Source: Pseudomonas vanderleydeniana
GTDB taxonomy: Bacteria > Pseudomonadota > Gammaproteobacteria > Pseudomonadales > Pseudomonadaceae
Length of the DNA stretch: 64,000 nucleotides
Assembly (NCBI RefSeq): GCF_014268755.2
Contig: NZ_CP077093.1
Span: forward strand, 6,694,501-6,758,500
Reading direction: 5' to 3'
A program made the position numbers and the translations under genes. Position 1 is the first letter of the stretch. Each line of letters starts with the position of its first letter. Below are positions 58,510-64,000 of this stretch, piece by piece. Under the pieces are notes generated by a model. It was not told the origin of the DNA. It saw only the letters and a list, made by a program, of their open reading frames with translations, and did not search any database.

Positions 58510-60702
58510 ATGGCATCGACCTCGTTCAACCAGTCCCTGCGCCGCCTCTGGGCCCTGGACAAATTCAGCTATAGCGTCCGGGTGTTCATCGCCCTGACCG
58601 GCATCATGACCCTGTGCTGGGCACAGAACGAAATGAAGTTGCTGATCCCGTTGTTCCTCGGGGTCATCGCCTGCGCCCTGGCCGAAACCGACGACAGCTG
58701 GCAGGGCCGTCTCAACGCGCTGGCCGTGACCCTGGTGTGTTTCAGCGTCGCCGCCTTTTCGGTCGAGCTGCTGTTCCCCTATCCCTGGATATTCGTGATA
58801 GCCATGGCCCTGGCCGCCTTCGGCCTGACCATGCTCGGCGCATTGGGCGAGCGCTACGGCGCGATCGCCTCGGCGACCCTGATCCTCTCGGTCTACACCA
58901 TGATCGGCGTGGACCAGCGCGGTGGCGAGGTCACCAACCTCTGGCACGAGCCCCTGCTGCTGGTCGCCGGCGCCGCCTGGTACGGCGTGCTCTCGGTCCT
59001 GTGGCAGGCGATGTTCTCCAACCAGCCGGTGCAACAAAGCCTGGCCAAGCTGTTTCGCGAGCTGGGCTACTACCTCAAGCTCAAGTCGTCGCTGTTCGAA
59101 CCGATCCGCCAGATGGACGTGGAAGCCCGGCGCCTGGAGCTGGCCCGGCAGAACGGCCGGGTGGTCGCGGCGCTGAACACCGCCAAGGAAATCATCCTGC
59201 ACCGGGTCGGCAACGGCCGACCGGGCTCGAAGGTCAGCCGCTACCTGAAGCTGTATTTCCTGGCCCAGGACATCCACGAACGCGCCAGCTCCTCGCACTA
59301 CCCATACAACGCCCTGGCCGAAGCCTTCTTCCACAGCGACGTGCTGTTCCGTTGCCAGCGCCTGCTGCGCCAGCAAGGCAAGGCCTGCCGGGAGCTGGCG
59401 GCCTCGATCCAGTTGCGTCAGCCGTTCGTCTACGACGCCAGCTTCGCCGAAGCCCTGGGCGACCTGCACGCCTCGATGGAGCACCTGCGCATCCAGAGCA
59501 ACCCGGCCTGGCGTGGCCTGCTGCGCTCGTTGCGGGCCCTGGCGGCGAACCTCAGCACCCTGGACCGCCTGCTCAGCGCCGCGAGCAACCCCGACAGTCT
59601 GGCCGACGCTACCGACAGCAGCCTGCTGGATCGGTCGCCACGCAATTTCAAGGACGTGCTGACGCGCCTGCGCACCCAGCTGACGCCGACCTCGCTGCTG
59701 TTCCGCCATGCCCTGCGCCTGCCGCTGGCGTTGAGCGTCGGCTACGGCATGGTGCACCTGGTGCACCCGTCCCAGGGCTATTGGATCATCCTCACCACCC
59801 TGTTCGTCTGCCAGCCGAACTACGGCGCCACGCGACGCAAGCTCGGCCAGCGGATCATCGGCACCGCCTTCGGCCTGACCGCCGCCTGGGCGTTGTTCGA
59901 CCTGTTCCCCAGCCCGCTGATCCAGGCGTTCTTCACCATCGCCGCCGGCCTGGTGTTCTTCATCAACCGCACCACCCGCTACACCCTGGCAACGGCGGCC
60001 ATGACCCTGATGGTGCTGTTCTGCTTCAACCAGGTGGGCGACGGCTACGGGCTGTTCCTGCCGCGCCTGCTCGATACCCTGCTGGGCAGCCTGATCGCCG
60101 GCCTGGCGGTATTCCTGTTCCTGCCGGACTGGCAGGGGCGGCGCCTGAACAAGGTGCTGGCCAATACCTTGAGCTGCAACAGCCTGTACCTGCGCCAGGT
60201 GATGCAGCAGTACGGCCAGGGCAAGAGCGACGACCTGGCCTACCGCCTGGCCCGCCGCAACGCCCACAACGCCGATGCGGCGCTGTCGACCACGTTGGCG
60301 AACATGCTGATGGAGCCGGGGCATTTCCGTAAGGAAGCCGACGTCGGCTTCCGCTTCCTGGTGCTGTCGCACACCCTGCTCAGCTACCTCTCCGGGCTCG
60401 GTGCGCATCGCGAGAACCAGTTGCCGGCGGAAGTCCGCGATCACCTGATCAATGGCGTCGGCGCGACGCTGGCCGCCAGCATCGACCAGATCGCCACGGG
60501 GCTGGCGAACAAGACCGCCATCGAGGTCCAGAGCGACGCCGAAGAAGCCTTGGCCAACGAGCTGGAGCAGATGCCGGAGGAAATCGATGAGATCCAGCGC
60601 CTGGTACAGACCCAGCTGGCGCTGATCTGCCGTCAACTGGGGCCACTGCGCACACTGGCCGCGCACCTGATCAAGGGCCCGGAAGAACAGCCCACGGTAT
60701 AA
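58510..60702 (+). CDS. yccS: YccS/FUSC-family inner membrane protein
   Basis: A 730-aa protein with two clusters of about five to six helices (residues ~20-190 and ~400-540). Each is followed by a helical cytoplasmic region, the duplicated FUSC layout. The motif GYWIILTTLFVCQPNYGATRRKLGQRIIGTAFG is typical. Relatives export aromatic acids or unknown anions. ATG 58510 is chosen; upstream in-frame codons give no hydrophobic or conserved sequence. It is followed by a large hairpin element. Confidence 0.85.
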   Translation: MASTSFNQSLRRLWALDKFSYSVRVFIALTGIMTLCWAQNEMKLLIPLFLGVIACALAETDDSWQGRLNALAVTLVCFSVAAFSVELLFPYPWIFVIAMALAAFGLTMLGALGERYGAIASATLILSVYTMIGVDQRGGEVTNLWHEPLLLVAGAAWYGVLSVLWQAMFSNQPVQQSLAKLFRELGYYLKLKSSLFEPIRQMDVEARRLELARQNGRVVAALNTAKEIILHRVGNGRPGSKVSRYLKLYFLAQDIHERASSSHYPYNALAEAFFHSDVLFRCQRLLRQQGKACRELAASIQLRQPFVYDASFAEALGDLHASMEHLRIQSNPAWRGLLRSLRALAANLSTLDRLLSAASNPDSLADATDSSLLDRSPRNFKDVLTRLRTQLTPTSLLFRHALRLPLALSVGYGMVHLVHPSQGYWIILTTLFVCQPNYGATRRKLGQRIIGTAFGLTAAWALFDLFPSPLIQAFFTIAAGLVFFINRTTRYTLATAAMTLMVLFCFNQVGDGYGLFLPRLLDTLLGSLIAGLAVFLFLPDWQGRRLNKVLANTLSCNSLYLRQVMQQYGQGKSDDLAYRLARRNAHNADAALSTTLANMLMEPGHFRKEADVGFRFLVLSHTLLSYLSGLGAHRENQLPAEVRDHLINGVGATLAASIDQIATGLANKTAIEVQSDAEEALANELEQMPEEIDEIQRLVQTQLALICRQLGPLRTLAAHLIKGPEEQPTV

Positions 60703-60760
60703 CGGCACCGCGAGCTTTGGCTTTTGATCTGCCAGCCCCGTTCCCAGCAGGCTGAGTGGA

Positions 60761-60943
60761 GGTTCTGTTTCGAGAGTCGCCCGGCAGGGATGCCGGGCGA
60801 GCCGTGGATGGCCCGTCACGGCGTGCTCTCGAAACAGAACCGGAGCGAAGGAACCCCTCGCGCAGCGAGGGGCCAATGGAGGGGCTAGACCTTTTGGTTC
60901 CTTTTGGGGCGTTTGCCAAAAGGAACTCGCCCGTAAAGGGCGA
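60761..60943. repeat. nested multi-stem repeat element
   Basis: The outer arms GGTTCTGTTTCGAGAG (60761-60776) and its exact complement (60826-60841) enclose two hairpins, CGCCCGGCA..TGCCGGGCG (60778-60799) and GCCGTG..CACGGC (60801-60822). Three more stems follow: CCCCTCGC..GCGAGGGG (60854-60872), GTTCCTTTTGG..CCAAAAGGAAC (60897-60926) and TCGCCC..GGGCGA (60927-60943). It sits between the converging yccS and solute-binding-protein genes. Confidence 0.85.
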
Positions 60944-60993
60944 AACAGAGACATCAGCTAAACGCGCAAACGGATATACACACCGCCCAGAAA

Positions 60994-61731
60994 TCACATT
61001 CCATGCAACTTGAGCAACCGCTGATAACTCCCATCCGCCTTCATCGCCGCAATCTCCCGATCGAACCCCGCCACGATCTGCGCATGTTGCGGATTCTGCA
61101 GACTGACCAGGATATGCAGCCCATTCTCGGATAGCGGCTTGGGCAGGAACTCCACCGCATCGCGCACTTCAGGCGGCTCCCGGCTGAGGTAGTAGCGCGC
61201 CACGAATTCATCCTCCAGCGTCAGCTTCACCCGCTCCGCCGCCAGCATGCGCACGGCCAGGGCAAAGTTGTGCACCGGCACCTTCTGCAGGCGCGGGTCC
61301 GACTCGAACTCGCTGGAATAGGCATAGTCGCGCACCACCGCAATCGGGTAGTCGTGCAGTTGCTGCAGGTTGTCGTAGGTGATCGGCGAACCCTTGTGCC
61401 GGAGGAACATCACCCGGTTCATCAGGTATTCGCTGGAAAACTGCCCCAGCAGGGTCCTGTCCTTGCTGTACCAGGCATTGACCAGGACATCGTAGCGCCC
61501 CTCACCCACGCCCTTGAGTGCCCGCGCCCAGGGCACCTGTTCGAACTCGCTGGCATAGCCGGCACGAGCCAGGGCCGTGCTGACGATGTCGGTCGCCAGG
61601 CCGCCATTGACCAGGCCCGCATCGGTGAACGGTGGCCAGGTATCGGCCACCAGCCGGAGTTTTTCCGCGGCCACGCCCTGTGCGAGCAACAACAATCCAA
61701 GCAAGGCAAAAGCTCGATGCAGTCGCGACAT
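60994..61731 (-). CDS. periplasmic solute-binding protein (SBP_bac_3/PAAT type)
   Basis: A 245-aa protein. The signal peptide MSRLHRAFALLGLLLLAQGVAA is followed by a two-lobe binding domain (LRLVADTWPPFTDAGLVNGGLATDIVSTAL.. GRYDVLVNAWYS..). ATG 61731 has AAGGAT 7 nt upstream. No transporter genes are adjacent, so it is an orphan binding protein that may feed a distant ABC system or a sensor. The ligand cannot be predicted. Confidence 0.82.
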   Translation of the reverse strand: MSRLHRAFALLGLLLLAQGVAAEKLRLVADTWPPFTDAGLVNGGLATDIVSTALARAGYASEFEQVPWARALKGVGEGRYDVLVNAWYSKDRTLLGQFSSEYLMNRVMFLRHKGSPITYDNLQQLHDYPIAVVRDYAYSSEFESDPRLQKVPVHNFALAVRMLAAERVKLTLEDEFVARYYLSREPPEVRDAVEFLPKPLSENGLHILVSLQNPQHAQIVAGFDREIAAMKADGSYQRLLKLHGM

Positions 61732-61984
61732 GCCAAAGATCCTTAGCGGGCGGGGCTGCCCTGCAGAATTGAAGCGAAGCAGAGAGGCTGGAAGAAAGCA
61801 ACTGGCCATCTCCCTGTTCCTAACAGTAGCTCATTCGCATCCAGGCAAACGCCCTGTCGGGCAGATTACACAAACATGACGAAGCCGGGCAACGCGCCAC
61901 GGGCGGCAACAGTGTTCACCCGGTTGGCGGCCTGGTACAAGCCGCTTAGTATCGATAACGGATATTCGAACAAGAGTGAGTGAA

Positions 61985-62017
61985 ATGAGCATCGACTGGA
62001 TCTGCAAGCACCACAGC
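61985..62017 (+). pseudogene. elaA: elaA-type GNAT gene, 5' fragment cut by the IS110 element
   Basis: Eleven codons (MSIDWICKHHS) match the usual start of Pseudomonas ElaA acetyltransferases. Joining them to 63408 restores one frame (..HHS-VLGKEQLYAILKLRTEVF) of 150 aa, the family's normal length. The element therefore removed no target bases. The fragment cannot make the enzyme. Confidence 0.85.
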
Positions 62018-62044
62018 GACAGTAAGAATGTACTGGCCAGTGTT

Positions 62045-62270
62045 CTCGTATGGTCTGACTCACACAGCGATAGACCGATGATGGATGATCTGGTCGTGAA
62101 GTGTCCCGCGTGGCCTGACCCACACTCCGATCGACCCTTGTGTCTTTCCCTGGACCTGTCGACCATCCGGGAACACTGCACGTCAAGGTGACCGCCTTGC
62201 CGATACATGTGACCCAAGAAGGGCCTGACGCCACGTCACTTTACTGTCTTGTCCAGGTGTCCGGTTGGAG
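62045..62270 (+). ncRNA. candidate bridge RNA of the IS110 element
   Basis: Ends are approximate. Donor-loop guides: AGAAGGGC (62217-62224) is identical to the last bases of the element with the core (63400-63407). TTACTGTC (62241-62248) is the exact reverse complement of the first bases of the left end, GACAGTAA (62018-62025). Target-loop guide: CACAGC (62063-62068) is identical to the elaA target ending in the core (62012-62017). GGAT (62083-62086) could pair with the right target GTCC (63408-63411) using one G-U. GGTCT (62052-62056) and AGACC (62072-62076) close the first loop. The order target loop then donor loop agrees with the IS621 bridge RNA. Confidence 0.7.
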
Positions 62271-62308
62271 CGGTTCAGTTCGTGCTCGGCGAATCGGAGC
62301 AACCAGCC

Positions 62309-63394
62309 ATGCGCAACGTTAAAGTCAGCAGTGTTTCGAGACAGGTCGTAGGCGGTGTAGATACCCATAAAGATCTGCACGTCGCTGCAGTCGTAGATGA
62401 ACAGGATCGTATCCTGGCCAGCGAGAGCTTTGCGACTACTCGTCAGGGCTACAAACAAATGCTGACGTGGATGTGCTCGTTTGGTGAGGTGGTGCGAGTG
62501 GGCATCGAGTGCACCGGCACGTACGGCGCAGGCCTATTACGTTACTTGGAACAAGCTGGAATCGCCGTCCTTGAAGTTACTGCACCTGATAAAAGTGACA
62601 GGCGCAAGCGGGGCAAAGATGACACCCTTGATGCTGGAAATGCCGCACATGCGGCCTTCGCTGGTATTCGTACCGTTACCCCAAAAAAACGAGACGGTAT
62701 GGTCGAATCGTTACGCGTGCTCAAGGTGTGTCGGAAGACGGCCATACAGGCCAGGCGCATTACCTTGCAACTGATCCAGAACACTATCGTTAGTGCGCCT
62801 GATGAGCTACGTGAATCATTACGCACGTTGACCCGCATGCAACTGATTAGAACGCTGGCAGCATGGCGTCCAGATCTATCAAGCTATCGTCAAGTCGCGT
62901 CCGCCTACCGGATTGCCCTGAAGTCGCTGGGGCGGCGTTATCTCGAGCTGCATGACGAAATAGCGGACTTGGATGTGATGATTGCAGCCTTGGTTGACGA
63001 TCTTGCACCAGAGTTGGTTTCCCGAAATGCCATTGGTTACGAGTCCGCTGCCCAGTTGCTACTGACGGCAGGCGACAACAGCGATCGTTTCCGCTCAGAG
63101 TCCAGCTTCGCGGCCTTATGTGGGGTTAGCCCAGTCCAGGCCTCTTCAGGGAAGGTCACCCGGCATCGCCTGAATCGAGGTGGTGATCGTGCCGCGAACA
63201 GTGCGCTGCATATCATCGCTATCGGACGGCTTCGGACAGACGCCCGAACGCAGGCTTATGTCAGTCGACGTCTCGCAGAGGGACATTCGAAGCTGGAAGC
63301 TATCCGCTGCCTAAAGCGCTACATCGCACGGGAGGTCTACAGCATTATCCAGAGGCGAAATAGCATCATCAACCAAAGCGCAGTATCCACTTGA
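62309..63394 (+). CDS. IS110-family DEDD recombinase
   Basis: A 361-aa protein. The N-terminal RuvC-like DEDD domain has Asp18 (GGVDTHKDLH), Glu67 (GIECTGTYG), Asp105 and Asp108 (GKDDTLDAG). A coiled-coil middle follows. The C-terminal Tnp domain carries LCGVSPVQASSGKVTRHRLNRGGDRAAN with the catalytic Ser at 279 or 280. It recombines element ends and target under guidance of the element's own RNA. ATG 62309 gives the usual N-terminus. Confidence 0.93.
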   Translation: MRNVKVSSVSRQVVGGVDTHKDLHVAAVVDEQDRILASESFATTRQGYKQMLTWMCSFGEVVRVGIECTGTYGAGLLRYLEQAGIAVLEVTAPDKSDRRKRGKDDTLDAGNAAHAAFAGIRTVTPKKRDGMVESLRVLKVCRKTAIQARRITLQLIQNTIVSAPDELRESLRTLTRMQLIRTLAAWRPDLSSYRQVASAYRIALKSLGRRYLELHDEIADLDVMIAALVDDLAPELVSRNAIGYESAAQLLLTAGDNSDRFRSESSFAALCGVSPVQASSGKVTRHRLNRGGDRAANSALHIIAIGRLRTDARTQAYVSRRLAEGHSKLEAIRCLKRYIAREVYSIIQRRNSIINQSAVST

Positions 63395-63407
63395 CACTTA
63401 GAAGGGC

Positions 63408-63827
63408 GTCCTGGGCAAGGAACAGTTGTACGCCATCCTGAAGTTGCGTACCGAAGTCTTCGTGGTCGAGCAGAACTGCCCCTACCAGGAAGTCGACGGC
63501 CGCGACCTCGAAGGTGACACCTGCCACCTGATGGGCTGGCGCGACGACCAGCTGGCGGCCTATCTGCGCCTGCTCGACCCGGTATCGCAGGGTGGCGACG
63601 TGGTGATCGGCCGGGTAGTCATCGCCCCCCAGGCCCGCGGGCTCGGCCTGGGGCACGAATTGATGGGCCAAGCCCTCGAACAGGCGGAAAAACACTGGCC
63701 CGGGGTGCCGATCTATCTGTCCGCCCAGGCGCACCTGCAGGGCTACTACGGCCGCTATGGCTTCGTCGCCATGGGCGAGGGGTACCTGGAAGACAACATC
63801 CCGCACATCGGCATGCGCAGGGGCTGA
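63408..63827 (+). pseudogene. elaA: elaA-type GNAT gene, 3' fragment
   Basis: It continues the ElaA frame from VLGKEQLYAILKLRTEVFVVEQNCPYQEVDG to the stop. It contains the acetyl-CoA loop VIAPQARGLGLGHEL and the C-terminal LSAQAHLQGYYGRYGFVAMGEGYLEDNIPHIGMRR. A TTG at 63426 could start a product missing ~17 residues, but no Shine-Dalgarno supports this. No other mutation is seen, so excision of the element would restore the gene. Confidence 0.85.
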
Positions 63828-63833
63828 AGCGCC

Positions 63834-64000
63834 TCAGGGGTAGCCCAGCACCTGCCTGATCGACGCCAGGTTGCCCTCGATCCAGCGCTTGTCGATCGCG
63901 CCCCAGTCGTGGATCCGGTAGTTGCCGGCATGATTGCGGGCACCTTCCTGCTGTTCGAACTCACAGAGGATGTCCAGGTCGGCCAGTGCCACGATGGTGT
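63834..64000 (-). CDS. C-terminus of an unrecognised protein, cut by the window edge
   Basis: The last 54 codons of a minus-strand gene ending ..WIEGNLASIRQVLGYP at stop 63834-63836. The fragment contains LADLDILCEFEQQEGARNHAGNYRIHDWGAIDKRW. Codon use fits the neighbours and it converges on elaA with a 6-bp gap. I do not recognise the family. Confidence 0.6.
   Translation of the reverse strand, partial: TIVALADLDILCEFEQQEGARNHAGNYRIHDWGAIDKRWIEGNLASIRQVLGYP

Follow-up and report, generated by a model that had tools for sequence, protein, structure and literature searches.

The question raised by this locus is how many insertion addresses an IS110-family element can carry in the RNA that guides it. 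In the window, by which we mean the whole 64,000-nucleotide stretch of the Pseudomonas vanderleydeniana genome that was analysed (NZ_CP077093.1, positions 6,694,501 to 6,758,500), such an element interrupts elaA. Bridge RNAs so far described have one target loop and one donor loop, and the initial annotation had likewise read a single left target guide here. From comparison of related elements and their insertion sites we conclude, with a probability of roughly 0.83, that the element carries two left target guides in a predicted single bridge RNA, either guide standing opposite one shared right guide, and that the recombinase would insert at either spelling of a catalytic motif of IS3-family transposases.

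Identity, ends and cores of the element

By its junctions in relatives and by the uninterrupted elaA of relatives, the stretch 62021-63410 (1,390 bp; plus strand, as are all features below) is a genuine IS110-family insertion of the ISEc21 group. The recombinase gene (62309-63394) encodes 361 aa with the DEDD_Tnp_IS110 and Transposase_20 domains of the family (PF01548, 6e-22; PF02371, 2.6e-15; NF033542, IS110 family RNA-guided transposase, 1.8e-56); the protein matches the PDB sequences of ISCro4 (9t56) and IS621 (8wt6) and is 73% identical to a transposase annotated as ISEc21. With 288 bases 5' of the ATG and 16 bases 3' of the stop, the element has the long noncoding left end upstream of the recombinase and the short right end of the IS110 group, and not the downstream RNA region of the IS1111 group.

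The ends had previously been set at 62018 and 63407 around a GC core, a placement that the junctions contradict. The left flank ends in GAY in 96 of 99 usable loci (GAT in 52, GAC in 44), and the right end, found in 86 of these loci and not found in 13, reads AGAAGGGC followed by GTC (79), ATC (4), TTC (2) or GTG (1), with C as the junction base in 85/86. Uninterrupted elaA in related genomes (12 loci examined, four not readable) has Asp (GAY) at the site in seven of the eight readable loci and Glu (GAA) in one, the proteins reading HH(S/T/G/N)DL in seven and HHTEL in one; GTC is never found there, so that the T of the right-junction GTC is part of the element. The GAY left flanks, the C-ended right junctions and the uninterrupted elaA genes best place the top-strand cut 3' of GAY and thus the element at 62021-63410, and the GC core and the ends drawn from it fall together. 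The cores of target (A-Y) and donor (T-C) are best placed as different. Beside the right target guide the core letters are GA in 97/99 loci, complementary to the donor core TC; in the right donor guide they are GT in 99/99, complementary to the target core AC. We infer that the right guides are built for the state after strand exchange.

A predicted -35 element (TTGACA, 63391-63396) lies in the right end, where TTGAC occupies the -35 place in 63 of the 67 right ends listed, and a predicted -10 element (AAGAAT, 62024-62029) lies in the left end. Joining of the ends in a circle would set them 17 bases apart and may thereby create a promoter, as proposed by analogy with the circle promoters of ISEc21 and IS621. 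A search of 60000-64000 against Rfam gave no match within the element at E up to 1. Sub-threshold hits at 60754-60848 (TwoAYGGAY on one strand, CRISPR-DR9 on both strands) possibly mark a REP-like repeat.

Guide layout of the left end

We found two units of the form YTGAYYC-N-(9-base guide)-NGAC in the left end, at a spacing of 60 bases. The first left target guide (LTG1, CACAGCGAT, 62063-62071) has the His-Ser(AGC)-Asp spelling; it is preceded by arm A (62038-62055), the 5' strand of the predicted LTG1 fold. The second (LTG2, CACTCCGAT, 62123-62131) has the His-Ser(TCN)-Asp spelling, stands in the same place as the ISEc21/ISMch6 guide, and is preceded by arm B (62101-62119), the 5' strand of the predicted LTG2 fold. 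Downstream follow a right target guide (CCCTG, 62148-62152, extending with the core letters GA to 62154) and arm C (62158-62178), a common 3' strand with which either arm A or arm B would pair. The match of CACAGC (62063-62068) to the left flank had already been noticed, and the single left target guide then placed at 62063 does fit the elaA site; what was missed is the second guide at 62123-62131.

The sequence matches first noted in the donor part are all present at their coordinates. The left donor guide AGAAGGGC (62217-62224) recurs at 63400-63407 and is identical to the right end in 83 of 86 loci, and TTACTGTC (62241-62248) is the exact complement of 62018-62025. With the corrected ends, the right donor guide is TTACT with core letters GT (62241-62247), and its five bases exactly complement the opening five of the left end in 95 of 98 loci (one of the 99 was not parsed), as against a mean of 48.7 and a maximum of 66 in 5,000 shuffles; the two covary as AGTAA/TTACT, AGTCA/TGACT and AGCAA/TTGCT. 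As in the IS110 group, donor guides are complementary to the element's own ends, and left and right target guides to the insertion site. The general reading was right: the element is of the IS110 family, and its left end has a predicted bridge RNA region, target part before donor part.

The right target guide had been read as GGAT, and its weakness had been taken as a sign of informative target tolerance. We found instead that CCCTG and its variants covary with the right flank (52 mismatches versus 72.7 in shuffles, reached by 0/5,000; 67 of the 99 loci), for example as CCGCG with CGCGG in L013, L065 and L126, and what is informative about the locus is not tolerance read from a single weak right guide. 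When the 20 LTG1-guided loci whose right flank is readable are taken alone, the fit of the right guide does not reach significance (744 of 5,000 shuffles did as well), so it is the arms that suggest that LTG1 shares this guide. Between the units, a CTGGT-like motif (62090-62095 in the window) occurs in many relatives, with or without LTG1; since it is also present in elements without LTG1, we rejected CTGGTC as a unit 1-specific right guide.

Sample of related loci

A scan of one genome per species gave 130 relatives, of which the best 80 were used; to these were added 24 plasmid records, further copies in the same genomes or records, three viral contigs and a few genomes of the genus or family. 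We tabulated 110 distinct loci, counting once those with the same flanks and left end. Ninety-nine were usable, and 11 were dropped because the left flank was missing or masked or, in the case of L116, because unit 2 was broken; the intact unit 2 of the usable loci was thus imposed by selection and is no finding. The usable loci comprise 59 dual elements, which carry both left target guides, and 40 single elements, which lack an intact unit 1. Two assignments were made by hand: L020 went from dual to single, its unit 1 guide being out of register, and L010 stayed dual despite a unit score of 9. Guides and targets were assigned to classes by the letters that define the amino acids, namely position 1 and positions 4-5.

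Insertion sites in IS3-family transposases and in elaA

All ten upstream target fragments that were scanned, out of 52 that are open over at least 140 codons, are IS3-type transposases (rve + HTH_21), and right flanks frequently continue with QGSQ, RGSQ or similar. The address usually hit is the codon for the second catalytic Asp in IS3-family transposases (His-Ser-Asp-Gln/Arg-Gly). Insertion at this codon is a mark of the ISEc21 group, and we found it in the relatives and in the second copy in the genome of the window (L002), which is identical and interrupts an IS3-type transposase between CTGTTTCACAGCGAC and CAAGGCAGTCAATATGG. A right-end fragment (L003; contig 1, 1864941-1865121; 95% identical), which is followed by CAGGGTAGCCAATATGG, an IS3-like right flank, is probably the relic of an older insertion.

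The copy in the window lies in elaA, which encodes an ElaA-type GNAT acetyltransferase and is split into a start (61985-62020) and a remainder (63411-63827; NF007644, 168 bits, 3 below cut-off). Its left target flank, CACAGCGAC (62012-62020), identified from the sequence and from elaA of relatives, pairs with LTG1 over nine bases, the last as G-U, and the right target flank CTGGG (63411-63415) fits the right target guide at four of five bases. The elaA insertion had been taken to record a guided event. This holds in so far as LTG1 would make the match, with one mismatch on the right side, but the site is off-type: elaA (His-His-Ser-Asp-Leu) was likely struck as a look-alike of the IS3 DDE motif. 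As L002 lies in an IS3-type transposase and L003 beside an IS3-like flank, elaA is not the usual address of the element. Three further unoccupied CACAGCGAYCNNGG sites in this genome (contig 1: 3019393, 3986025, 4445613) are not IS3-like by eye in the motif frame, and their count is at chance level, since the reversed pattern also gives three; a TCN-type IS3 pattern tried on the same genome found none.

Arm pairings in the predicted RNA

Arms A and B both pair with arm C in dual elements, and arm B alone does so in single ones. In dual elements the predicted energies were -31.1 kcal/mol for A:C and -37.6 kcal/mol for B:C, compared with -17.7 and -19.7 for shuffled arms; in single elements they were -13.0 for A:C (-11.6 shuffled) and -33.6 for B:C (-16.5 shuffled). 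When 46 of the 59 dual left ends were aligned, near-duplicates being left out, 95.6% of cells are paired in A:C and 94.7% in B:C, with 10 of 13 and 10 of 20 pairs, respectively, changed on both sides. Cells changed on both sides number 54 for A:C (17.8 shuffled) and 86 for B:C (34.2 shuffled), values reached by 0/500 shuffles in each case, though these shuffles ignore kinship; for B:C, two of five measures were matched by 3 and 8 of 500 shuffles. Because the helices were derived from consensus folds of this same alignment, computed while one arm was blocked, comparison with slid controls favours A:C and B:C.

As A:C and B:C occupy the same arm C columns, one molecule cannot form both. Predicted ensembles of dual left ends (n = 51) favour A:C in 20, B:C in 29 and neither in two, and those of single left ends favour B:C in 30/34. 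The favoured fold does not predict the site that is occupied, L004 favouring A:C yet lying in an LTG2 site, and the left end of the window folded alone is not stronger than shuffles (z -0.88; 40/200 at least as good). We regard the predicted folding switch as moderately supported.

Both guides might also work without alternative folding, if unit 1 formed a small RNA of its own or used a right guide of its own (such as CTGGTC at 62090-62095) and each target were served by a different complex. We consider this unlikely, though the processing of the ISEc21 RNA, with an abundant form of 74 nt (PMC11187229), would agree with it; by its length, such a form would hold arm B to arm C only. CTGGTC also complements GACCAG, a target core plus right flank, but the presence of the CTGGT-like motif in elements without LTG1 means that it is not specific to unit 1, and the covariation of A:C and B:C on the same arm C speaks against separate complexes.

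Which guide the targets match

Among the 59 dual elements, the target belongs to the class of LTG1 in 33, to that of LTG2 in 25 and to neither in one (L047), and among the 40 single elements the class of LTG2 fits the target in 33. Of the 34 dual targets outside the LTG2 class, 33 fit the element's own LTG1 class; 20,000 shuffles of LTG1 among the dual elements gave 14.2 on average and 26 at most. Counts of mismatches agree: targets with at least two mismatches to LTG2 make up 36/60 dual and 9/39 single elements (P = 0.0004, Fisher; L020 still counted as dual), and among these targets at most one mismatch to LTG1 is found in 28/36 dual and 0/9 single elements. Mismatch counts tie in three dual rows (L055, L127 and L138), which are decided by class.

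The LTG1 classes of the 59 dual elements are His-Ser(AGY) in 27, Asn-Thr in 27, His-Gly in three and His-Ser(TCN) in two. Asn-Thr guides belong to alphaproteobacterial hosts, judged by the host names in the records, and the alphaproteobacterial L057 and L140, which carry CACAGCGAT as LTG1, are sited in AGY targets. Where LTG1 is naturally altered to AACACCGTT (L065, L126, L130), targets are TCN in 3/3. On a plasmid of Microvirga lotononidis, L147, L152 and L157 have both guides altered in parallel (LTG1 CACGGCGAT, LTG2 CACGCTGAT), and their targets, CACGCGGAC twice and CAGGCTGAC, are of the LTG2 class.

We also weighed the possibility that LTG2 alone works and that unit 1 is a decaying duplicate, AGY and Asn-Thr insertions being mismatched hits at whichever IS3 sites the host offers. 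B:C is indeed the stronger helix on average, and unit 1 is absent or broken in 40/99 elements, scattered over the tree. With an LTG2 of the TCN class, however, AGY or Asn-Thr targets occur in 28/49 dual but 0/23 single elements. Given further that non-LTG2 targets fit the element's own LTG1, and that A:C pairing is kept with an intact LTG1 and absent on average without it, we find this explanation very improbable.

Still harder to maintain is the single-guide reading, in which 62063 holds the left guide, the core is GC, the right guide is weak and unit 2 is structural only. LTG1 does fit both the elaA site and the second genomic copy. However, the ISEc21/ISMch6 guide appears to sit at unit 2, single elements follow LTG2 in 33 of 40 cases and dual ones either guide, and LTG2 covaries with the target, as in L015 (AACACCGAT), L013 (CATACCGAC) and L147 (CACGCTGAT versus CACGCGGAC); the GC core is contradicted by the junctions and by elaA of relatives, and the GGAT right guide by right-flank covariation.

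Seven of the 40 single elements lie off the LTG2 class. L023, L035, L130 and L139 depart from the class by one or two letters, L021 lies out of register, and the left flank of L016 resembles the left donor guide. The junctions of L046 (Neopusillimonas maritima), AGAAGGGGTC on the left and AGTAAAAG on the right, resemble the joined ends of the element itself (AGAAGGGCGTC-AGTAA), as though its target had been selected by the donor guides.

Switching between guides among close relatives

Closely related elements are found in targets of both classes. Two copies in one genome (L036 and L096) have identical recombinases and opposite target classes, and near-copies in both classes also occur as L008/L009, L038/L039, L068/L141 and L052/L137, and on two plasmids of one strain as L127/L128, L127 being a mismatch-count tie. 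The window element and L002 are near-copies of L004 and L005 and differ from them in target class. On a recombinase tree of 90 elements (nine of the 99 were left out for short frames, and L085 stands on a branch of length 10, with a wrong or broken frame), a minimum of 17 changes of the guide used is required. Tree elements without an AGY guide are in an AGY site in 0/55 cases, and those without an Asn-Thr guide are in an Asn-Thr site in 1/62 (L035). Phylogenetically independent pairs run in the expected direction, except for rare pairings in one of three tests; as there are only 4-5 supported pairs, p < 0.05 is out of reach. The use of two guides is well supported by these natural insertions.

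The idea that insertion comes first and the guide is then copied from the target by flank conversion, the match being a consequence of the event, could draw on the direct repeat CACAGCGAYAG formed by the left flank and LTG1, but is scarcely credible: elements that are nearly identical occupy different targets (L036/L096, L038/L039, L068/L141), most guides end in GAT at GAC and GAT targets alike, and the left end would have to be altered at each new site, which is not supported.

Comparison with known systems

The window element resembles ISEc21 (seekRNA), which has its RNA region upstream of the gene, targets the second Asp codon of IS3-family DDE transposases, makes no target duplication and forms a circle with a promoter at the joined ends (PMC11187229); the recombinases are, as noted, 73% identical. 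In an annotated ISEc21 copy, which is truncated before arm B, unit 2 reads CACAGCGAT, and the published ISEc21/ISMch6 guide would correspond to unit 2 in placement. The guides of ISEc21 and ISMch6 are described as differing by 'three altered bases' (PMC11187229). This agrees with the ISMch6 copy of Methylorubrum extorquens CM4 (L136, annotated ISMch6), where unit 2 is CACTCTGAT, three bases off the ISEc21-type CACAGCGAT, and the target is CACTCGGAC. The same copy also carries CACAGCGAT as LTG1, which the passages of PMC11187229 consulted do not mention.

Like IS621, the window element has a DEDD/Tnp recombinase, a predicted left-end bridge RNA, left and right guides for target and donor, and a predicted handshake pairing across two DNAs (PMC11208160, PMC11208158). 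In IS621 there is a single target loop, and the core is CT in target and donor alike (PMC11208160, PMC11208158); the window element departs from this in having two left target guides and different cores: the target is GAY in 96/99 loci and the donor GTC or ATC in 83/86. The right guides of IS621 pair with the incoming core after strand exchange (PMC11208158), and the core letters of the right target and right donor guides of the window element likewise complement the incoming core. A further parallel is TIGR-Tas, whose Nop-domain RNA-guided proteins are related to IS110 and use more than one guide in tandem; TIGR arrays are, however, processed into separate guides, whereas the two guides here would compete for one 3' half (PMC12045711). 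The same source describes the IS110 bridge RNA as a single two-stem unit (PMC12045711), and in the open-licence literature that was searched we found no earlier description of dual target guides.

A proposed two-state bridge RNA

We put forward, as probable but with clearly less assurance than the dual guide itself, a two-state multiplexed bridge RNA in which two 5' arms compete for one 3' arm and one recombinase reads two addresses. Lineages would set these addresses to synonymous Ser codons (AGC, TCN) or to residue pairs (Asn-Thr, His-Ser), so that the element tracks its IS3 hosts through changes of codon or residue. The RNA would start just before arm A, and pairing of arm A or arm B with arm C would be the way in which a guide is chosen, LTG1 or LTG2 then standing opposite the right target guide that they presumably share. 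The donor loop would bind the joined ends, the core letters of the right target and right donor guides may pair with the incoming core, and the recombinase would exchange strands 3' of GAY. The window element would use CACAGCGATCAGGG through LTG1 and CACTCCGATCAGGG through LTG2, both through the shared right guide.

If this is true, bridge recombination is already multiplexed in nature, RNA folding may set the choice of target, and recombinase tools could carry more than one address per RNA. The two guides likely let one element home on two spellings of the same vital site in rival mobile elements: an element that lives on other transposons can in this way reach the synonymous spellings of a motif, a task to which a single nucleic-acid guide is poorly suited. 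Differing target and donor cores, together with 3' guides that complement the incoming core, also make the direction of strand exchange testable.

Distribution

Pattern surveys yielded few loci: 3/398 in the genus, with a stricter pattern, and 4/295 in the family of G414. Phage records yielded no loci, and viral contigs yielded the same three loci twice. Two left target guides are retained in the window element and in 58 further loci; intact enterobacterial ISEc21-like relatives differ in having the second guide only, with a degenerate unit 1 (for example L022, L024, L026, L030 and L033). An actinobacterial relative in Tetrasphaera australiensis (L074), whose left flank reads N, has two guide units, CACGCCGAT and CACTCCGAT.
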